DNA from: Ignavibacteriota bacterium
GTDB taxonomy: Bacteria > Bacteroidota > Ignavibacteria > UBA10030 > UBA6906
DNA length: 61,827 bases
Assembly: GCA_003157485.1 (NCBI GenBank)
Contig: PMJQ01000160.1
Span: 175-62,001, forward strand
Direction: 5' to 3'
How positions within the stretch are numbered: position 1 is the first letter of the stretch; each line of letters starts with the position of its first letter. Of the stretch, positions 6,611-35,345 are shown one piece after another. The notes beneath the pieces were generated by a model, which saw nothing but the letters and a program-made list of their open reading frames with translations, ran no database searches and was not told where the DNA came from. A program made the translations under genes and the position numbers.

Positions 6611-8665
6611 TTACCAGATGTTTGCCCTGAGCGATTCGGGCCGGACCATCGCATCGCCCTCTTTCAACCCGAACGCATGCTGGAATTCAGGCATGTCCGA
6701 CAGCGGGCAGTTGACGCGGAGCGCGCTTATGGCATGGGGATCGAGGATAACACGCCTGCGGAGCTCCTGGTCACGGTAATTCGCCCGCCAGATCTGCGCC
6801 CATGCAAGGAAGAAGCGCTGTTCGGGAGTGAAGCCGTCAATCGGCGCCACCGCGGGCTTCCCCGCTTCCGATTTCTTGAGAGCCGCAAATGCGATTGTCA
6901 GCCCTCCAAGGTCGGCGATGTTTTCGCCGAGCGTCAGCTTCCCGTTCTCGTGAATCGTGTCGATCACGACGCAATCGCTGTACTGCTGCTCAAGGCGGTG
7001 CGCACGGGCGTCAAAGGCGTTCCTGTCAACCGGCGTCCACCAGTCCTTCAGGTTCCCGTCGGAGTCGAACTTGTTCCCTTCGTCGTCGAATCCGTGCGTC
7101 ATCTCGTGTCCAATTACAGCGCCCATCCCGCCGTAGTTGACAGCATCGTCAGCCTCGGGATCGAAAAACGGAGGCTGCAGGATTCCGGCGGGGAAGACGA
7201 TCTCATTGAGCTGGGGATTATAGTACGCGTTCACCGTCGGCGGAGTCATCCCCCACTCGGTACGATCGACGGGCTGTCCGATCTTGTCGAGGTGGCGTTT
7301 GAATTCGAATTCGCTCGCGCGCATCAGGTTTGCGATGAACGGCCCCCTGTCGATCGTCAGCGACGAGTAATCGCGCCATTTCTCGGGGTATCCTATCTTG
7401 ACCCTGAATGCCGAGAGCTTGTCCAGCGCCTTCGACTTCGTATCGTCGCCCATCCACTCGCGGGTTTTGAGCCTCTCCTTGAACGCGGCGCGTAAATTCT
7501 CGACCATCTCCATGGCCCTCGCTTTTGCAGAGGGGGGGAAGAACCGTTTCACGTACTGCATGCCGAGCGCATCTCCCATATTCCTGTCCGTCGCCTCGAG
7601 CGCGCGCTTCCAGCGCGGCTGGATCTGCTTTGCACCTGTCATCACCTCGCCGTTAAAGTGGAAGCTCTCCGCAACGAATGCAGAGCTCAGCCAGGGAGCG
7701 GCGGCGTTCACGACATGCCACCGGAGATAGGTCTTCCAGTCCGCGAGCGTCACGTCGTTCATCATCGCGCTCACCTCCTTGAAGAAGGCGGGCTGTTCGA
7801 CATTGATCGGGCCCGGGCTTGGCTTGCCGATCGCCGCAAAATATGCTTTCCACCCGAATCCCGGCGCAAGGTCGCTCAGCTCTCCCAGGGTCATCCTGTG
7901 GTATGTCGCGTTGGGATCGCGCTGCTCGACCCGGGTCATCGACGCCCGGGCAAGCCGCGTCTCTATTTCCATGACCGTCTTCGCGTTCGCCGCGGCGGCG
8001 GCGGCATCACCTCCCGCAAGCTCGAGAAGCTTCCGGATATGGGCAAGATACTGCGCGCGGATTTCACGGGAGTGATCGTCGTCCTTCGTGTAATAGTCCC
8101 TGTCAGGAAGACCGAGCCCCCCCTGACGGACCTGCGCGATCTCCTGGGTGGAGTTCTTTGGGTCCTGGTTGACATAGAAGCCAAACAACGAATTGGCGAG
8201 AGTAACGTGATGATGGGCCACCTCGGCCGGGAGGCCCGATACGGAGGTGATTGCCGCTATGCGGGAGAATTCGTCGGCAAGCGGGCTGACCCCCTCCCGC
8301 TCCGCCGCCTCGGAATCCATCGCGCTTGCGTAGAAGTCGCCGATCTTCTGGACATTGGCGGTCTTTGTCCCGCCCGGAGCCGCAGCCGCATCGAGTATCG
8401 AATGCAGGTCACGCATGTTCTTCTCAATAAGCTCGTTGAAGCTCCCCCAGCGCGAATATTCCGCCGGGACGGGGTTTGCCGCAAGCCACCCGCCGTCCGC
8501 AAATCTGTAGAAATCAGTTCCGGGGCTTACCGTTTTGTCGATGTTGCGGGGGTCAATACCGTGATAGGTCTCGGGGTTTGCGGGGATGTGCTGCGCGAAA
8601 AGCGGGACTGCGGCAAGGGCGGCCGCAAGGAGAATGGCGCCCGTGCATCTGCGATGAATGCTCAT
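6611..8665 (-). CDS. M13-family zinc metallopeptidase (neprilysin/PepO type), exported
   Basis: Secreted or periplasmic zinc endopeptidase, 684 aa. Zinc site HEMTH (His520, Glu521, His524), third ligand in GENIAD (Glu581), and the substrate-binding NAYYNPQLNEIVFPAGIL segment upstream, all standard for M13. It starts with a signal peptide (SIHRRCTGAILLAAALAAVPLFAQ). Two ATGs in a row occur; GGAGG lies 7 nt before the second (8665), which I chose. The final ANIW replaces the CxxW end of mammalian enzymes, as is common in bacteria. Monocistronic. It probably feeds on or processes extracytoplasmic peptides. Confidence 0.95.
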   Translation of the reverse strand: MSIHRRCTGAILLAAALAAVPLFAQHIPANPETYHGIDPRNIDKTVSPGTDFYRFADGGWLAANPVPAEYSRWGSFNELIEKNMRDLHSILDAAAAPGGTKTANVQKIGDFYASAMDSEAAEREGVSPLADEFSRIAAITSVSGLPAEVAHHHVTLANSLFGFYVNQDPKNSTQEIAQVRQGGLGLPDRDYYTKDDDHSREIRAQYLAHIRKLLELAGGDAAAAAANAKTVMEIETRLARASMTRVEQRDPNATYHRMTLGELSDLAPGFGWKAYFAAIGKPSPGPINVEQPAFFKEVSAMMNDVTLADWKTYLRWHVVNAAAPWLSSAFVAESFHFNGEVMTGAKQIQPRWKRALEATDRNMGDALGMQYVKRFFPPSAKARAMEMVENLRAAFKERLKTREWMGDDTKSKALDKLSAFRVKIGYPEKWRDYSSLTIDRGPFIANLMRASEFEFKRHLDKIGQPVDRTEWGMTPPTVNAYYNPQLNEIVFPAGILQPPFFDPEADDAVNYGGMGAVIGHEMTHGFDDEGNKFDSDGNLKDWWTPVDRNAFDARAHRLEQQYSDCVVIDTIHENGKLTLGENIADLGGLTIAFAALKKSEAGKPAVAPIDGFTPEQRFFLAWAQIWRANYRDQELRRRVILDPHAISALRVNCPLSDMPEFQHAFGLKEGDAMVRPESLRANIW

Positions 8666-26873: not shown

Positions 26874-28529
26874 TCACATCAACCGGGAAACAAGGAGCTG
26901 CGCCATGATGATCTTCGCGATCATCGAGACCGGGTAAACGGACGCGTACCAGACATTCGGGGCATCGGACGCGCCGTGTTCGTTGGCGTAGGCAAGGCAG
27001 GCCGGCTGTGTCTGTATGCCGGACATGAGACCCATGACGGCCGGATATGAAAGACGGAGGAGCCGGCTCCCAACACCGAGGACAAGGATCGTCGTCACGA
27101 GTGTGATCCCCGCACCAACCGCCATGAGGGCCCAGCCGCCCCGTTCGACAGTCCCCGCGAACCCGTCTCCCGCTTTGGTCCCTATCCCCGCCAGGAACAG
27201 GACGAGTCCCACCTGACGCAGCGTTAGATTCACGCTGAAGGGCATCCCCCATGAGATCGGACCGGTTCGCTGCAGGCGTCCGAGGAGGAGACCGGCGATG
27301 AGGGGCCCCCCCGCAAATCCGAGAGAAAATGTCCCGCCGCCCGGGAGGGGGAACGTCGCGATCCCGAGGAGTATGCCCGCGGCAAGTCCAACGGAAAGGG
27401 AGAGGAAGTCGGCCTCCGATCCCGAACGGACGGAGTCCCCGAGAAACCGCGCCACGCGGTCCAGGTTACCGGCCCACGTCAGAACGCGGACCCTGTCTCC
27501 CCTTTCGAGGACCGTCTCACCCGTCGGGATGAAATCGACGTCCCCCCGCCGTACCCTCGTTATCGTCGCATCGAGAAGCCGCTGTATGTCCAGCTCCCGT
27601 ATCGTCCTGCCGATCACCCGCTTGTCGGAGACGTCGATCCTGCGGAAGTCGAATTCCTTGTTCTCCGTCTGTATTTCCCGGCCCGATTCTTCGCCGAAGA
27701 GTACCCGGGCCCTCTCGTGCGCCGGCGTGTCCCCCACGGCGACGACAAGGTCGTCCTTCGCCAGCGTCGTCTCGGCGTACACGAGCGAGGTCTCCTCCCC
27801 GCGCCGGAGACGGCTGAGGACAAACCCGTGGTGCGATCCATCGCCCAGGAGAGAAGCCACGGATCTGCCGAAGACGCCCGGGTTCACGACACGGTACGTC
27901 CTCCCGTACAGGGGTCCGGGCGTCTCTCCTGTCGCGGGCCCCACTTCCGGCTCCCTCTTCGCCGCACCGGATCTCATCTTCCCCGAAATGTGGAAGGCAA
28001 GGAGCACGCCGATGACCCCGAACGGGTATGCAACGCTGTAGCCGATCACGGGCGCGCTCGTCCTGGCCTGCATTTCGAGCGCCGTCAGCGCAGCTCCGCC
28101 CGGTGCGCTGCGGATCGCCTCAACGCCGGCGGCAAGCGCAGGCGTGTTCGTCAACGCCCCGCAGAATACCCCCACCATCGACAGTCCGTCGAGACCCAGG
28201 ACCCTGGAGCCCGCGACGGCCATCCCGGCTGCGAGGAGGATTGCGGCAAACGCGAAGAGATTCGCCCGGAGCGCTCTTTTCCCGAACGAAGAGAAGAACG
28301 ACGGGCCGGACTGGAGACCGATAGTGTAGACGAACAGGACGAGGCCCAGAACATAGAGAAGCTCGGGGATCCTTAGGCGGGAGTCGAGCGAACCGAACAG
28401 TATCCCCACGAAGAGCACCGCCGCCGGGCCGAGAGAAAAGCCGAAGACGCGGATGCTGCCGGCCAGCCATCCGAGGCCGATCACCGCAAAAAGGAGGAGG
28501 AGCGGAGACGATGCGAGATAGTCGATCAT
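26874..28529 (-). CDS. AAE-family transporter (AspT/YidE-YbjL duplication type) with two RCK_C domains
   Basis: 551 aa. Two copies of a five-helix hydrophobic module frame a soluble insert. N-terminal half: LYVLGLVLFVYTIGLQSGPSFF and GVFCGALTNTPALAAG. C-terminal half: VGLVLFLAGIGTKAGDGF and MGLMSGIQTQPACLAYANE. Between them are two TrkA_C/RCK_C-like domains, with REIQTENKEFDFRRI and LDIQRLLDATITRVRRGD. This matches AspT-related aspartate:alanine exchanger family members. Substrate unknown; a carboxylate fits the operon. Overlaps the epimerase gene by 4 bp (ATGA). Confidence 0.88.
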   Translation of the reverse strand: MIDYLASSPLLLLFAVIGLGWLAGSIRVFGFSLGPAAVLFVGILFGSLDSRLRIPELLYVLGLVLFVYTIGLQSGPSFFSSFGKRALRANLFAFAAILLAAGMAVAGSRVLGLDGLSMVGVFCGALTNTPALAAGVEAIRSAPGGAALTALEMQARTSAPVIGYSVAYPFGVIGVLLAFHISGKMRSGAAKREPEVGPATGETPGPLYGRTYRVVNPGVFGRSVASLLGDGSHHGFVLSRLRRGEETSLVYAETTLAKDDLVVAVGDTPAHERARVLFGEESGREIQTENKEFDFRRIDVSDKRVIGRTIRELDIQRLLDATITRVRRGDVDFIPTGETVLERGDRVRVLTWAGNLDRVARFLGDSVRSGSEADFLSLSVGLAAGILLGIATFPLPGGGTFSLGFAGGPLIAGLLLGRLQRTGPISWGMPFSVNLTLRQVGLVLFLAGIGTKAGDGFAGTVERGGWALMAVGAGITLVTTILVLGVGSRLLRLSYPAVMGLMSGIQTQPACLAYANEHGASDAPNVWYASVYPVSMIAKIIMAQLLVSRLM

Positions 28530-28954
28530 GAATGCCGGGGGGGGAATTCGGTGAACTCCGTCAGAACGCCGCAGGCCGAGCCGGGGTGGACGAACGCTAT
28601 GGAGAGTCCCTCCGCACCCTTTCGCGGGCTCCCGTCGATGAGCCGCACACCGTCCGCGGCGAGATCGCGAAGCGCAACGTGTATGTCACCGGAGGCATAG
28701 GCGATGTGATGGATCCCCTCCCCCCGTTTCTCGATGAATTTTGCCACCGGTCCGTCGGGACTCGTGCTCTGCAGAAGCTCGACCTTCGATTCCCCCAGGC
28801 GGAAGAATGCGGTCTTCACCGACTGATCCGCGACTTCCTCCACCGCATAACAGGGGACGCCGAGAAGCTTCTCGTAGATTCCTATCGCGGCGTCAAGATC
28901 CCGGACTGCTATTCCGACGTGCTCGATGCGCAGTGCATGGTGGGGCTGATCCAT
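28526..28954 (-). CDS. mce: Methylmalonyl-CoA epimerase
   Basis: 142 aa, glyoxalase-fold metalloenzyme interconverting (S)- and (R)-methylmalonyl-CoA. RIEHVGIAVRDLDAAI at the start (first His ligand), then VELLQSTSPDGP, GEGIHHIAYA (second ligand) and LTEFTEF (Glu ligand). Start at 28954 (MDQPHHAL) preferred, with GGAGG 10 nt upstream. Another ATG three codons earlier is only 1 nt from that GGAGG. The gene lies 47 bp after the biotin carrier gene and overlaps the transporter gene. Confidence 0.95.
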   Translation of the reverse strand: MDQPHHALRIEHVGIAVRDLDAAIGIYEKLLGVPCYAVEEVADQSVKTAFFRLGESKVELLQSTSPDGPVAKFIEKRGEGIHHIAYASGDIHVALRDLAADGVRLIDGSPRKGAEGLSIAFVHPGSACGVLTEFTEFPPRHS

Positions 28955-29001
28955 GACTCTCATTCCTCCCGGGTGCACATTCCGCGGCCTGCGGGCCGGG
29001 G

Positions 29002-29328
29002 TCATTCAAATTCGAGAAACACCTGTCCCTTCGTCACCGCGTCGCCGGCGGAAACACAGAGCGCATGGATCGTCCCCTCATGAGGGGAGACAACCTGGTT
29101 CTGCATTTTCATGGCCTCGAGCACGAGAAGAGGATCGCCTTCCTTCACGCGCATCCCCTTCCGCACGGACACCTCCAGTATGACCCCCGGGATGACGCAT
29201 CGGACGAGGCGCGGGTCGGGTGAAACGTACAGAGAGCGCGTTTCGAACTTTTTCGTGTATCGGGTCGCGTATGATACCTCACCTATCACGAGCTCCCGCA
29301 GCGTTTCGTCTGTCGGCACGGCGCTCAT
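29002..29328 (-). CDS. Biotin carboxyl carrier protein of an acyl-CoA carboxylase/decarboxylase
   Basis: 108 aa. The C-terminal biotinyl domain has the biotinylation site EAMKMQN and surrounding hammerhead (GVILEVSVRKGMRVKEGDPLL; VSPHEGTIHALCVSAGDAV). A short N-terminal extension (about 35 residues) has ELVIGEVSYATRYTKKFE. It carries the carboxyl group for the carboxyltransferase encoded just upstream, whose stop overlaps this start by 4 bp (ATGA). No biotin carboxylase gene is nearby. Confidence 0.92.
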   Translation of the reverse strand: MSAVPTDETLRELVIGEVSYATRYTKKFETRSLYVSPDPRLVRCVIPGVILEVSVRKGMRVKEGDPLLVLEAMKMQNQVVSPHEGTIHALCVSAGDAVTKGQVFLEFE

Positions 29329-30869
29329 GAGGGGGGTACCCCGTGTTTCTTATATGGCCGGGATTCGCTCTTGTTCGCCGATATCTGTATCGCGTGGATG
29401 AGGAAGTCCCTCGTGGCCGCGGGACTTATCACCGCGTCGATATGCCCCGAGGCCGCGGCAACGTACGGGTTCGCGAATTTTTCCGTGTACTCCGAAACCT
29501 TCCGGCGGCGCATCTCGGCCGGGTCCGGAGCGGCGGCGATCTCATTTCTGAATATGATGTTCGCGGCGCCCTCGGGCCCCATGACGGCGATCTCCGCGGT
29601 CGGCCACGCAACGACGAAGTCCGCCCCCAGGTGCCGCGAGCACATGGCGATATATCCCCCTCCGTACGCCTTCCGAAGGATGACGGTGATCTTGGGGACT
29701 GTGGCCTCGCTGAATGCATAGAGGAGCTTCGCGCCGTGTCGTATGACGCCGGCGTGTTCCTGGTCGACGCCGGGGAGATATCCCGGAAGATCGACAAACG
29801 TGATAAGAGGAATGCCGAACGCGTCGCAGAAACGGATAAACCGGGCAGCCTTGTCGGATGAATCGACGTCAAGTACGCCGGCAAGGACCATGGGCTGGTT
29901 GGCGACGATCCCCACGGTTTCCCCGTCGATCCGCGCAAACCCGACGACGATATTCGCAGCCCAGTTGGCGTGGACGTCCAGGAATTCGGAGTTGTCGCAC
30001 AGGGCGCAGATCACATGCCTCACGTCGTACGGCTTCCGTGAATCCATCGGCACGATCCGCTCGATGTCGAACTTCGCCTTCGGCGGCTTCACCGGGTACC
30101 GTTCGGCCTTCTTCTTGTTGTTCCAGGGGATGAACGTGAAGAGCTGTTTGATCTGGTGGAAGCACTCGAGCTCATTCCTCGCGTAGAAGTGGGCGTTGCC
30201 GGATATCTCGCTGTGGACTCGGGCTCCGCCGAGGTCCTCCATGGAGATCTCCTCGCCCAGGACCGTTTTTATGACTTCGGGTCCCGTGATAAACATCTTG
30301 GAGATATTGTCCACCACGAAGACGAAATCCGTCAGAGCGGGGGAATAGACTGCGCCCCCCGCACAGGGGCCCAGGATCACGGAGATCTGCGGCACGATGC
30401 CGGATGCGAGCGTATTCCTATAGAATATCTCGCCGTATCCTGCGAGTGAGTCCACCCCCTCCTGGATACGGGCCCCTCCCGAGTCGTTGATACCGATAAT
30501 GGGCATCCCCATTTTGATCGCGTGATCCATGATCTTCGTGATCTTCCGCGCATGCATCAGACCGAGCGAGCCCCCCGCTACGGTGAAGTCCTGCGCATAG
30601 ATGCATACCGGGTATCCCATGATTGAGCCGGTCCCCGTTATTACGCCGTCACCGGGAAGGACCTTCTTGTCCATGTCAAAGTCGCGGCAGCGGTGCTCGA
30701 CGAAGAGATCAAATTCATAAAACGAGTCGACGTCGAGCAAAGCGGTGATACGGTCCCGGGCGGTGAGCTTGCCGAGCGCCATCTGTTTCTCGGATGCCCT
30801 GCTTGCCCCTCCGTTTACAAGGCGTTCTTTCCTTCTGAAAAAATCAATGTGCTTATTTGGCATTGACAC
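29325..30869 (-). CDS. Propionyl-/methylmalonyl-CoA carboxyltransferase subunit (MmdA/PccB-like)
   Basis: 514 aa. Carboxyltransferase with both crotonase halves. N-half: GKLTARDRI, DFTVAGGSLG and GINDSGGARIQEGVDSL. C-half: FVDLPGYLPGVDQEHAGVI, KAYGGGYIAM and MGPEGAANIIF. It moves CO2 between biotin and propionyl/methylmalonyl-CoA. GTG start at 30869 supported by AAAGGA 7 nt upstream; an in-frame ATG two codons later would be 13 nt away. Heads the operon with biotin carrier, epimerase and transporter. Carboxylase or sodium-pump decarboxylase roles cannot be separated here; no MmdB-type membrane subunit is visible. Confidence 0.93.
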   Translation of the reverse strand: MSMPNKHIDFFRRKERLVNGGASRASEKQMALGKLTARDRITALLDVDSFYEFDLFVEHRCRDFDMDKKVLPGDGVITGTGSIMGYPVCIYAQDFTVAGGSLGLMHARKITKIMDHAIKMGMPIIGINDSGGARIQEGVDSLAGYGEIFYRNTLASGIVPQISVILGPCAGGAVYSPALTDFVFVVDNISKMFITGPEVIKTVLGEEISMEDLGGARVHSEISGNAHFYARNELECFHQIKQLFTFIPWNNKKKAERYPVKPPKAKFDIERIVPMDSRKPYDVRHVICALCDNSEFLDVHANWAANIVVGFARIDGETVGIVANQPMVLAGVLDVDSSDKAARFIRFCDAFGIPLITFVDLPGYLPGVDQEHAGVIRHGAKLLYAFSEATVPKITVILRKAYGGGYIAMCSRHLGADFVVAWPTAEIAVMGPEGAANIIFRNEIAAAPDPAEMRRRKVSEYTEKFANPYVAAASGHIDAVISPAATRDFLIHAIQISANKSESRPYKKHGVPPS

Positions 30870-30961: not shown

Positions 30962-31864
30962 TCAGACCACGGCAGCGAGCGCGGCGGCGACGCCGGGGTA
31001 GCGGAATTGATACCCCAAGCGGAGCAGTTGCGAGGGGACGGCGCGCTGACCGGTAAGTATCATGCCGGCCATCTCGCCGAGCGCAACACGGAGAGGGAAC
31101 GAAGGGACCGGAAGCCAGGAGGGCCTTGAAAGGGCGGCTCCCAGCGCGGCGCAAAACTCCTTCATCGTCACGCACCCGGGGGCCACCAGGTTGACGGGAC
31201 CTGAAAGCGCCGGATTGCCGAGAGCGAAGAGGATCACCCCCGCAACGTCATCCCTGTGCACCCAGGGAAACCACTGCTTCCCTGAACCGACGGGTCCGCC
31301 GACGTACAAGCGGAACGGAAGGAGCATTTTTTCAAGCGCGCCCCCCTTTTCCCCCAGAACGACACCGGTGCGCAGAACCACCACACGGCACCCGAGCTCC
31401 CCGGCGGCAAGCGCCTCTTGCTCCCAGCGGACGCAGAGGTCCGCAAGAAATCCGGCACCGGGGGGATGGTCCTCAGTAACGTCTCCCGATTCGACGGGAC
31501 CGTAATACCCCACTGCCGAGGAGTTGATGAAGACGGAGGGTTTCTTCTCTCCGGTCATCATCGCTTCAAGAAGAGCACGCGTGGCGTCGATCCGGCTCTC
31601 CACGATCCGTCTCTTCCGGGACGCGGTCCACCGCCCGTCGCCGATTGATTCTCCCGCCAGGTTGATGACGGCATCCGCACGACGGACGTGAACGGCCCAC
31701 TCCCCCTGTGTCCTGCCGTCCCAGGAAACACGTGCCGCATCTTCCGTGCGCGCACTCCGGGCCGGAGCACGCGTCAGCACGACCACGTTGTGCCCTTCGC
31801 TGCGGAGGAGGGGCACGACTGAAGACCCCATGAATCCGCTTCCGCCTGCGACGACGATGTTCAT
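30962..31864 (-). CDS. TIGR01777-family NAD-dependent epimerase (YfcH/SDR39U1-like)
   Basis: 300 aa. Extended SDR with the family's N-terminal VVAGGSGFMGSSVVPLL, NLAGESIGDGRW signature, INSSAVGYYG (the family's SxxYG active region), RTGVVLGEKGGAL, and PWVHRDDVAGVI. Function of the family is unsettled (some members were annotated as a cell-division inhibitor). The start at 31864 has AAGGAG 9 nt upstream and overlaps the end of the photolyase remnant by 4 bp. The same type of gene often sits beside carH/litR and photolyase genes. Confidence 0.92.
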   Translation of the reverse strand: MNIVVAGGSGFMGSSVVPLLRSEGHNVVVLTRAPARSARTEDAARVSWDGRTQGEWAVHVRRADAVINLAGESIGDGRWTASRKRRIVESRIDATRALLEAMMTGEKKPSVFINSSAVGYYGPVESGDVTEDHPPGAGFLADLCVRWEQEALAAGELGCRVVVLRTGVVLGEKGGALEKMLLPFRLYVGGPVGSGKQWFPWVHRDDVAGVILFALGNPALSGPVNLVAPGCVTMKEFCAALGAALSRPSWLPVPSFPLRVALGEMAGMILTGQRAVPSQLLRLGYQFRYPGVAAALAAVV

Positions 31865-32076
31865 GTGTGTGCGCTCCTTCCCGCGCCGGAGGGGGCTCCG
31901 GAGCAATGTGAACGGGAACCCGTCTCCGCACCGTCAGCACCCGACTCATGCGTACAGAGGAACGGAATCACGTCAGCGCCCTCCTCGAGTGCATGCCAGA
32001 GCGGACCGTTGTCCGAGATCCTGACCGTACGCCTCATCCAGACGAGCACGCGTCCGAATTTTCGGGGAGCATTCAC
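31861..32076 (-). pseudogene. Truncated photolyase/cryptochrome N-terminus (remnant)
   Basis: A 71-codon frame (GTG start at 32076) whose first about 42 residues read as the beginning of a DNA photolyase: RVLVWMRRTVRISDNGPLWHAL, then an EEGADVIPFLCTHES strand. This matches the first Rossmann strand-helix-strand of the photolyase N-terminal domain. About 25 low-complexity residues follow and the frame ends at a TGA overlapping the next gene's ATG. A full photolyase is about 450-500 aa, so over 85 per cent, including the FAD domain, is missing. There is no room for it here, so a deletion is likely. Confidence 0.72.
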
Positions 32077-32093
32077 GTGAGAGGGACGGGGGA

Positions 32094-33032
32094 TCAGGAA
32101 TGTCTCTCTTCGGGGAGATCGCCCCCGCTGCAGGGTGAACCGGACCTGCCGAACCCCTGTAAGAAGCAGAGAAGATCCTGCGAGGAATTATGCGAGGCGT
32201 CCACAACGCCGTCCTTCCGGCGTAGCGATCCGGCGAGCCGGCCCCCCGCCAGGAGTACAGCACCCGCCTTTTTCGCCGCCCCGGCGACCGTTTCAAGATC
32301 ACGCATGTGATCCCCGCCGGCGGAGACCGTAGAGGAGAGACATACAATATCGGGCTGCCATTGATCAATGGCGGCGCTGACGGCTTCGGCCGGGATGCGG
32401 GAACCAAGGTAGCGGGTTTCCCATCCTTCTGATTCGAAAAGGTACGCCGCACAGCGGAGCCCTATCTCGTGGAGCTCATCGCCGATCGTCGCGCAGACGA
32501 CCGCTCGCCCCGAAGGAGGCTTTATGCGGATCTGGAGCTGGAGTTTCGCCAGTGCCTCGAGCGTCTCATACGAGGCACTGTGCTCGTGTCCGATCCCTAT
32601 CTCCCCCCGGGACCATCGCTCGCCGATCTCCTCCATAGCGGGGCGGATCACACGGTCGTGCAGCTCCCAGATCTGCATGCAGTGTTGGTACAGGTAGGAG
32701 AGGAACGGGAACAGACCGTTCCCATCGGGCGTGAGCGCCCTGCGGACATACGATTCCACAAGAAGCGGGAAATCCCGTGCCAGGACGGCAACCTGAATTT
32801 TCGAGTCGAGCCCGTCGCTCCCAGAAATCTCGAGAGCTCCCGACGGCTCGAAGTGGTTTGCTTCAGCGAATTCCACGACATTCCGGATCTCAAATTTCCG
32901 GTGCCCCCCGGGGGTCTTGTGGCATTTCAGCGTCCCCTCATCGGCCCACCTTTTCACCGTCGTTTCAGTGACGTTGAAGAGCCGCGCGACATCAGCCGTG
33001 GAGAGAATAGTTTTCTGTATCGAACCTGTCAT
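32094..33032 (-). CDS. MerR-family B12-dependent photoreceptor-like regulator (CarH/LitR type)
   Basis: 312 aa. MerR winged helix (residues about 8-65; STADVARLFNVTETTVKRW) followed by a helical cap and a cobalamin-binding domain. The cap has the Wx9EH motif typical of CarH (Trp140, Glu150-His151). The Rossmann part has E-x-H-x-x-G (Glu186, His188, Gly191; His188 would be the lower cobalt ligand), LSSTVS and LAGGRL. Such proteins repress in the dark with adenosylcobalamin and release DNA when light cleaves the cofactor. The residue after Trp140 is Ser; in Thermus CarH it is the His that ligates cobalt after photolysis (from memory). Genes downstream fit a light-response locus. Confidence 0.88.
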   Translation of the reverse strand: MTGSIQKTILSTADVARLFNVTETTVKRWADEGTLKCHKTPGGHRKFEIRNVVEFAEANHFEPSGALEISGSDGLDSKIQVAVLARDFPLLVESYVRRALTPDGNGLFPFLSYLYQHCMQIWELHDRVIRPAMEEIGERWSRGEIGIGHEHSASYETLEALAKLQLQIRIKPPSGRAVVCATIGDELHEIGLRCAAYLFESEGWETRYLGSRIPAEAVSAAIDQWQPDIVCLSSTVSAGGDHMRDLETVAGAAKKAGAVLLAGGRLAGSLRRKDGVVDASHNSSQDLLCFLQGFGRSGSPCSGGDLPEERHS

Positions 33033-33048
33033 TAGTTAAGGCCGATAT

Positions 33049-33085
33049 GGTCGTTTTGTTCGTTTAAATCTACCGATAAACGACC
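33049..33085. promoter_or_regulatory. Putative carH operator with repeated TCGTTT half-sites
   Basis: GGTCGTTT (33049-33056) and AAACGACC (33078-33085) form a perfect 8-bp inverted repeat. A further TCGTTT (33060-33065) repeats the left arm directly with 9-bp period. The block covers the -10 hexamer and start site of carH, where an autorepressor would act. Confidence 0.55.
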
Positions 33086-33096
33086 CAGAAAGTCAA
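33067..33096 (-). promoter_or_regulatory. Promoter of carH
   Basis: Minus strand: TTGACT (33091-33096), 18-bp spacer, TAGATT (33067-33072); predicted leader about 28 nt. Confidence 0.6.
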
Positions 33097-33131: not shown

Positions 33132-33161
33132 TTCTCTCTTGAACCTCTATTCTCTCTTGAA
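33132..33161. repeat. 18-bp-period direct repeat across the glgB stop codon
   Basis: TTCTCTCTTGAA occurs at 33132-33143 and 33150-33161. The second copy encodes the last GlgB residues FKRE; the first repeats the same codons just after the stop, so it looks like a tandem duplication. Confidence 0.8.
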
Positions 33162-35345
33162 ATAGAGTGCCGCAAGGGGTGGAAGTGCGAGGTTCAGCGA
33201 GTATTCTCTTCCATGAACGGGGACGGCTTCGGCGTTCACCGCACCGTAATTGCCTATGTTGGATCCCCCGTAGCAGAGCGCATCGCTGTTGAATATCTCC
33301 CGGTACGTCCCCGGCTGCCACACACCGATTCTGTAACCGATGCGGGGAACAGGAGTGAAGTTGAAAACTGCGGTGATCGTTTCCGTCCCGTCGGCGGATT
33401 TCCGGTCGAACGCGATCACGCTTGACGCCGCATCGTGGAAATCAACCCATTCAAACCCGGTGTATTGAAAATCGACTTCGTGCATCGCCCGTTCCCGGCT
33501 GTAGAGCGCCCCCAGGTCCTTCACCATGTCCTGAACCCCCCTGTGCGTTGCGTACGCAAGGAGATGCCAGTCAATGCTCTTCTCATTGTTCCACTCGTCC
33601 CACTGTCCGATCTCTCCCCCCATGAAGAGAAGTTTCTTTCCCGGGAACGCATACATGAGCGAGAGAAGGAGCCGCAGGTTTGCAAATTTCTGCCAGAGAT
33701 CCCCAGGCATCTTTCCCAGGAGCGAACCCTTCCCGTGAACGACTTCGTCATGCGAAAGGGGGAGGAGGAACCGCTCGGTGAACGCGTACAGAAGTACAAA
33801 CGTCAGGTTCCTGTGATGAAACGTCCTGTAGACAGGATCCATCGAGAAGTATTCGAGTATGTCGTGCATCCACCCCATGTTCCACTTCAGGTCGAACCCC
33901 AATCCCCCGTTCTCCACAGAATTCGTCACTCCGGGCCACGAGGTCGATTCCTCCGCGATCGTGAGCACGCCAGGGTGGTAACGGTGCACGACGCCGTTCA
34001 GGTAGCGGATGAACTCGACGGCTTCGAGGTTTTCCCTCCCGCCGTACTTGTTGGGGATCCATTCCCCCTCCTTGCGGGAGTAATCCAGGTAGAGCATCGA
34101 GGCGACCGCGTCGATCCGGAGGCCGTCGATGTGATACTCTTCGAGCCAGAAGAGCGCGTTGCTTATAAGAAAGTTCTTAACCTCATTTCTTCCGAAATTG
34201 AATATGAACGTTCCCCAGTCCTGGTGCTCCCCCTTGCGCGGGTCAGCGTGTTCGTACAGGTGAGTTCCATCGAACTGTGCAAGCGCGTGTATGTCCTTCG
34301 GAAAATGTGCAGGGACCCAGTCGAGAACGACGCCGATGTTGTTCCTGTGGCACAGGTCCACGAAGTACTTGAAATCGGACGGGGTTCCGAACCTGCTCGT
34401 GGGCGCAAAATAGCCTGTGACCTGGTAGCCCCACGACCCGTCCAGGGGATGCTCCATCACGGGCATGAGCTCGACGTGCGTAAACCCCTCCTGGAGGAGA
34501 TACCCGACGATCCTGTCCGCCGTCTCGCGGTACGTGAGCCAGCGGTTCCCCTCCCCCCTCTGCCACGAACCGATGTGAACTTCGTACATTGCCACCGGGC
34601 CGGCCAACTGGCCGCCGCGGGAGCGCGTTTCCACCCATGCCGCATCCCCCCAGTCGAAGCCCCGGAGGAAGTTCACCCTTGACGCGGTGCGGGGGCGGAT
34701 CTCCATCTCCGACGCATACGGATCGGTCTTGTCCATGACGAACCCGTTCTGCGTTTTGATCTGGAACTTGTAAAGTTCCCCCTCGGCAAGGCCCGGGATG
34801 AAAATCTCCCAGATCCCCGACGACCCAAGGACGCGCATGGCGTGGCAGCGCCTGTCCCATCCGTTGAAGTCCCCGATCACGCTAACGCTCCGGGCCGATG
34901 GAGCCCAGACGGCGAACTGCACACCCCCCACGCCGTTGACATCGGCATAGTGCGCGCCGAGCTTTTCATAGATCCTGTGGTGATCCCCCGCGTTGAAGAG
35001 GTAAATGTCGAAGTCCGTCAGCGTCGGCATGTACGAATACGAATCATGGAACTCCTCCACCCGCCCGCCGGCGAGCGTCTTTCTGAGCCTGTAGGGGAAA
35101 ACCTCGCGGCACTCCGGTATGACAACCTCGAAGAAGCCGAGGTCATGGAGTTTCTCCATCGGAATTTCCCGGCCGTTCAGAACGCCTCCGGCGCCGATGA
35201 CTGAAACGGTCAGCGCGCCGGGGAGGAACGCGCGTATCGCAAGCCGTCCGCCGTCAAGGATGTGGGGCCCCAGCACCGCGAACGGGTCATGGTGATCGTT
35301 GAATATCACCCTGTAGACTTCATCAAGAGGGGCAGTGCTGTTCAT
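33147..35345 (-). CDS. glgB: 1,4-alpha-glucan branching enzyme
   Basis: 732 aa, full-length GH13 enzyme forming alpha-1,6 branches in glycogen. An N-terminal carbohydrate-binding domain ([22 protein letters not shown]) is followed by CBM48 ([22 protein letters not shown]). The catalytic barrel has [10 protein letters not shown], the nucleophile in [18 protein letters not shown] and [14 protein letters not shown]. The C-terminal beta domain ends ALYFKRE. Its start overlaps the rmuC stop (ATGA). No other glycogen gene is in the window. Confidence 0.97.

Follow-up and report, generated by a model that had tools for sequence, protein, structure and literature searches.

The window, as we call the whole 61,827-nt stretch of DNA that was analyzed from the genome of an Ignavibacteriota bacterium (G000), carries a gene for a CarH-like regulator between a branching enzyme gene and an oxidoreductase gene. 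The features of this locus are the following:

33147..35345, minus strand: GlgB (branching enzyme), which in synteny flanks the locus on the left; in the sister genome G003 it directly abuts the SDR gene
33091..33096, minus strand: putative -35 element TTGACT of the carH promoter, 18 bp from the -10 element, assigned from sequence
33067..33072, minus strand: putative -10 element TAGATT of the carH promoter, likewise assigned
33038..33065, minus strand: candidate operator for the CarH-like protein, made up of three direct repeats of 9 bp (AWCGNNCNW x3) just past the -10 box
32094..33032, minus strand: CarH-like regulator of the AdoCbl type, 312 aa, with a BldC/MerR wHTH, a four-helix cap and a Rossmann B12 domain
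31951..32076, minus strand: photolyase stump with a GTG start, about 42 residues homologous to the N-terminus of the photolyase antenna domain
31861..31950, minus strand: non-homologous tail of the stump frame, whose TGA overlaps the SDR start codon (ATGA)
30962..31864, minus strand: SDR oxidoreductase of the TIGR01777 family, which in synteny flanks the ancestral crt-phr cluster on the right

The regulator and the photolyase stump

The reading frame of the regulator is uninterrupted (312 aa, no stops) and matches three Pfam profiles: HTH_17 (E = 6e-10), B12-binding_2 (E = 6e-6) and B12-binding (E = 1e-13). The first-pass annotation had described a MerR helix-turn-helix, a Wx9EH cap motif and an ExHxxG cobalamin motif in this protein, and all three were recovered. 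The N-terminal MerR-type wHTH is matched by HTH_17 and by MerR_1, which exceeds its cut-off; the cap motif is exact (W140-x9-E150H151); and the cobalamin residues are part of an exact ExHx2Gx41SxTx27GG motif (E186-x-H188-x2-G191, S233xT235, G263G264), judged against the form ExHx2Gx41SxT/Vx22-27GG of class I CarH/LitR proteins. The Wx9EH motif separates CarH from the B12-independent CarA. The SignatureFinder signature of B12 photoreceptors is represented by GxxW, EH and GxxxP, while its GxxH element appears as G184DELH188 (GxxxH, one residue longer). The position of TtCarH His132 is occupied by Ser141 and is never His in the family.

Since the NCBIfam CarH equivalog model yields only 58.2 bits against a cut-off of 400, the regulator is named CarH-like and not a CarH equivalog. 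Its DNA-binding domain (DBD) matches the BldC-like wHTH model NF033787 (E = 7.7e-15; 54.5 bits, under the cut-off of 77). By sequence, the closest relative with a solved structure is 8JBS (E = 7e-42; TtCarH, E = 4e-14), and a fold search with the AlphaFold model (mean pLDDT 77) ranks 8JBS/8JBT first, with a TMt of up to 0.90 over the B12 domain. These structures are of CtMerR from Chloracidobacterium thermophilum, which binds AdoCbl and forms a tetramer in the dark and a monomer in the light; it has Arg at the TtCarH H132 position, yet responds to light (PMC11796333). Both proteins combine a BldC-like wHTH with B12 cap and Rossmann domains and share GxxW, EH, GxxxP and the lack of His at the H132 position. 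They differ in the GxxxH of the regulator versus GxxH, and their identity in a structural alignment of the B12 domain is about 28%. A cobalamin adenosyltransferase gene was found in the genome of the window, and AdoCbl could therefore be formed from cobalamin. The Rfam scan of the window returned no match, and hence no cobalamin riboswitch.

Downstream of the regulator, the 71-residue frame at 31861-32076 (minus strand) matches positions 1-36 of the PF00875 profile (E = 2.8e-7, above the curated cut-off), the comparison that the first-pass annotation had proposed. It aligns with the N-termini of intact family photolyases to about residue 42; this part of the original description stands, whereas the non-homologous tail, given as about 25 residues, is of about 29. 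A DNA photolyase has an antenna and an FAD-binding domain and this frame has PF00875 positions 1-36 only, so that, as judged from its sequence, it is a photolyase remnant and not a photolyase. The annotated TIGR01777 epimerase further downstream was also recovered (348.6 bits; cut-off, 207), with its likely start at the ATG at 31864, which overlaps the TGA of the fragment as ATGA. The same ATGA overlap with the SDR start codon is found in the independent stump of a relative, G016 (L052, about 7820-8050), as in the window (31861-31864). Translational coupling to the SDR might perhaps have been preserved in both stumps; a coincidence of frame, about 1 in 9, is the possible alternative.

Gene loss at the carH locus in related genomes

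We compared the locus with that of relatives, which are MAGs deposited as Ignavibacteriae, Bacteroidota/Bacteroidetes and Chlorobi. In four of them (G012, G014, G017 and G018), the same place is occupied by glgB, crtI, carH, crtB, a polyprenyl synthase gene, a photolyase gene and more carotenoid genes (the complete gene order was read in G012 and G014), and the SDR follows this cluster in G014 and G018. These Ignavibacteriota MAGs show that the ancestral order was crtI-carH-crtB-GGPPS-phr...SDR. Other relatives present reduced versions. G010 has carH, a crtB stump of 40 residues, an intact photolyase gene and the SDR; in its congener G016, carH is followed by a photolyase stump and the SDR. 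The phytoene synthase stump of G010 (G010:C208:18739-18855; L054) covers the first 40 profile positions between carH and the intact photolyase, and is an intermediate state of decay. In G001 and G002, which belong to the genus of the window, carH adjoins the SDR and the photolyase is gone, and in the sister species G003 carH has been excised exactly, so that glgB and the SDR now meet within about 4 bp. The intact clusters, stumps and deletions at one and the same place bear out the view that the light-response locus has decayed around an intact CarH-like regulator. The accompanying claim that the classical target was deleted is right for the photolyase but too narrow, as the classical targets also included the carotenoid operon.

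Across the family, carH is kept with both crtI and phr absent in 7 of 21 genomes (G000, G001, G002, G005, G008, G016 and G019), in all of which family-wide searches detected neither a CrtI above cut-off nor a photolyase FAD domain. The contrasts within genera indicate that loss occurred independently three times or more (genus g1; G016 vs G010; G019 vs G012/G017). G006 is not counted among the seven: it lacks a photolyase and keeps CrtI/CrtB elsewhere in its genome. G020 was dropped as a case of loss, its crt-phr cluster being located on another contig. No carotenoid CrtB or CrtI was found in G000. Two PF00494 matches on contig C184 were rejected as phytoene synthases: the one that was scanned is HpnD above the NCBIfam cut-off, and because the same tandem pair occurs in relatives we read the two as hopanoid HpnC/HpnD. 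The CrtI-like matches in this genome are weak partial matches to oxidoreductases (42 bits; cut-off, 238).

The truncation of the photolyase could also be an error of assembly hiding an intact gene, given that the G000 assembly consists of 239 contigs and is 91% complete. The stump is the sole PF00875 match in this genome, and searches of its contigs with PF00875 and FAD_binding_7 returned no other trace of a photolyase. FAD_binding_7 is absent from every contig of G000 and of three congeners, the congeners have carH adjoining the SDR without any photolyase, and the gene is intact in G010 but reduced, in the congeneric G016, to a stump of independent origin. We consider an assembly error very improbable.

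Several other observations were made around these loci. A cluster for methylmalonyl-CoA epimerase, biotin carrier and carboxyltransferase lies near the locus at 28526-30869 of the window, and in G016 methylmalonyl-CoA mutase-like genes adjoin the SDR, placing an AdoCbl-dependent pathway beside an AdoCbl-type regulator. G007 has an additional CarH-like paralogue (G007:C265; L167), which is divergent and is accompanied by a near-perfect copy of the operator motif. None of the papers searched mentions both 'Ignavibacteria' and 'CarH'.

We then estimated selection on carH. The dN/dS ratio (NG86) is 0.17 between G001 and G002 (0.117/0.682) and 0.16 between G000 and G002 (0.204/1.26, near saturation), which shows purifying selection with a dN/dS of about 0.16-0.17. 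Within the genus, identity is 92-94% for the DBD and 61-63% for the Rossmann domain. The cap residues (W140, E150 and H151) and the B12 residues are invariant in 18 aligned CarH sequences, an alignment in which the G007 regulator is cut by the contig end after the motif His.

A candidate operator and an ECF sigma factor gene

The alignment of carH promoters exposed tandem 9-bp repeats (AWCGNNCNW x3) directly after the -10 box, and the 9-bp period is seen across the aligned candidate sites. A 29-position model, built on the carH and ECF sites and thus not independent of them, finds two sites in G000 at E ≤ 1; the carH site, itself one of the training sites, has E = 2.3e-4 in the whole-genome search. 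A pattern search of G000 and three congeners returned the carH site and one notable second site, in G000 (C96) and G001 (C81), which in both genomes falls on the promoter of one and the same ECF sigma factor gene (TTGACA-17-TATAAT and TTGACT-17-TATAAT, respectively). C96 is a contig other than that of carH, so the ECF gene would be a target in trans. Two further operator-like sites in G000 were set aside: that on C85 apparently lies inside a coding frame, and neither it nor that on C78 is among the significant matches of the model. The sites at carH and at the ECF gene are the only clear ones in this genome. Outside the family and the training set, the motif immediately precedes carH in G027 and a photolyase gene in G064, and these sites support the three-repeat motif as the candidate operator of the regulator.

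We scored the 220-bp stretches upstream of the ECF orthologues with a matrix trained only on nine carH/crtI-type sites. As would be expected of a LitS-like, CarH-controlled sigma factor, the promoter of the sigma factor gene carries the predicted operator of the regulator: the matrix finds a site in 15 of the 16 orthologues. Scores range from 9.9 to 29 for the 14 orthologues in CarH-bearing genomes with readable promoters, relative to a 99th percentile of 7.2 over 2,514 null windows (the few higher ones include true carH sites) and to at most 7.5 for 15 non-orthologous ECF genes. The exception is G002, where the site starts ATCGTACAAATCG and an assembly gap comes directly after ATCGTACAAATCGTCT. 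In G003, which lost carH, the ECF site is eroded, with a damaged first repeat, a weaker -10 and a score of 12.4; this is a single event and the score is still above background. CarH and the ECF gene tend to occur together (15 of 17 genomes with CarH against 1 of 4; Fisher P = 0.03, uncorrected for relatedness), with CarH found without a detected ECF orthologue in G007 and G013 (the CarH of G013 being distant).

These results show a predicted operator conserved at the carH and ECF promoters. The link between carH and the ECF gene appears ancestral in the family rather than gained after the gene losses, and the regulator most likely retains this ancestral target in trans. The first-pass annotation had expected that the regulator may now control other genes; the ECF gene with the same predicted operator is such a candidate, but the link is old and not new. 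It is thus probable that the regulator has neither fallen idle nor been rewired recently.

The motif was also observed before other genes. The same TonB-dependent receptor gene bears an operator-like repeat in two genera (L187 at G010:C92; L189 at G014:C49) and is a possible extra member of the regulon. DUF4397-like lipoprotein genes lie directly behind the motif in two families (L185 and L186 in G012 and G017; L207 in G064, by inspection).

Proposed regulation and alternative explanations

Sequence signatures shared by related genomes suggest that the regulator continues to control carH itself and, at a distance, the gene of an ECF sigma factor, a master regulator. In the dark, the AdoCbl-bound protein would oligomerise and probably occupy the three head-to-tail repeats past the -10 box, both at its own promoter and at that of one ECF sigma factor gene (G000:C96). 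On illumination, cleavage of the Co-C bond would take the oligomer apart and release both promoters; in the simplest model, carH and the ECF gene are thus repressed in the dark and relieved by light. The freed sigma factor would then switch on its own gene set, the presumed ECF regulon. The carotenoid operon and the photolyase, once in the same cluster and regulon, would have been lost stepwise, leaving the photolyase stump; we propose that the regulator was kept because its sigma factor output was not lost. Taken as a whole, we regard as likely this explanation, in which the protein is an AdoCbl-dependent repressor of the CarH/CtMerR type and its B12 binding, light response, DNA binding and repression are predicted from homology and motifs. 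The evidence is entirely sequence, mostly from MAGs. The missing His at the H132 position, the GxxxH element, the 58 bits against 400 and the repeat spacing all count against it, as do the two CarH-bearing genomes in which no ECF orthologue was detected (G007 and G013) and the fact that G003 is a single event whose site scores above background.

Known systems provide parallels to most parts of this model. In the dark, CarH is bound to DNA together with AdoCbl, and light makes it dissociate (PMC8156234). The CarH proteins of Thermus thermophilus, Bacillus megaterium and Myxococcus xanthus share with the regulator the domain order, the complete Wx9EH and B12 motifs, a direct-repeat operator (predicted here) at a sigma-A-type promoter and an ancestral carotenoid cluster. 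In contrast, the predicted repeats are of 9 bp rather than the 11 bp of CarH (PMC8156234), the predicted operator lies after the -10, the bis-His residue is missing and the regulator was kept here despite the loss of carotenoid genes; the two myxobacteria without carotenoid genes are also without CarH (PMC9304148). The word 'operator' is absent from the report on CtMerR (PMC11796333), so there is no CtMerR target DNA to compare with the 9-bp-repeat operator and regulon predicted here. In Streptomyces coelicolor, LitR is likewise a B12-based MerR photoregulator that controls an alternative sigma factor gene, litS (PMC12705666), but LitS drives crtE, whereas in G000 carH and the ECF gene are widely separated and the genome lacks crt/phr. 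BldC of Streptomyces binds head-to-tail to 9-bp direct repeats AATTNNNNC (PMC5859096); it resembles the regulator in wHTH type and in the spacing of the predicted sites, and differs in its variable repeat numbers and in having no B12 domain. In the regulator, the DBD is of the BldC kind and the B12 domain of the CtMerR kind, and at its predicted sites 9-bp repeats occur together with sigma-A-type promoters.

The repeat unit and its 9-bp spacing, in place of the 11 bp of TtCarH, match BldC sites (PMC5859096), and BldC-like domains are widespread; the carH and ECF repeats might in principle be the sites of some other BldC-like protein. We find this unlikely, as the motif is associated with the promoters of carH, crtI and photolyase genes in different families and erodes where carH was lost, and the DBD of the CarH-like protein is itself BldC-like. 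Another explanation is that the regulator no longer has a function, is intact by chance and is being lost as a relic, as might be suggested by the deletion of carH in the sister species G003 and the fast divergence of the Rossmann domain. The low dN/dS, the conserved DBD, the invariant B12 residues, the predicted operator and promoter, both intact, and the parallel retention of carH in seven genomes make a relic quite improbable.

It is also conceivable, if doubtful, that the regulator was kept as a sensor of AdoCbl (B12 status) controlling the ECF sigma factor, light being no longer its physiological signal. Repeated loss of photolyase and carotenoid genes suggests lightless habitats, and four photolyase-less relatives have record labels ending in 'D' (E1D, E2D, E3D), which we take to denote deep fen peat. 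The locus moreover adjoins propionyl/methylmalonyl-CoA genes, and methylmalonyl-CoA mutase uses AdoCbl. DNA binding by CarH-type proteins needs AdoCbl (PMC8156234). Yet the light-associated cap residues are invariant, and the habitat argument is a lead taken from labels, with E3M MAGs on both sides. The stronger proposal, that in lightless lineages the B12 photoreceptor persists as a pure coenzyme-B12 sensor gating an ECF sigma factor through BldC-style 9-bp repeats, is rather doubtful; if true, a photoreceptor would have returned to metabolite sensing.

Under the light-responsive repressor model that we favor, there is a testable reason for a photoreceptor gene to outlive those for photolyase and carotenoids, namely that the output which has been conserved is probably a sigma factor encoded elsewhere. 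The logic is that known from LitR-LitS; the candidate three-repeat operator and the ECF link are new here. For the CtMerR-like branch, the predicted operator is of the 9-bp BldC style and not of the 11-bp CarH spacing. Finally, G003, G010 vs G016, and G019 vs G012/G017 constitute natural contrasts of gain and loss that may inform on the role of B12 photoreceptors where light matters little.
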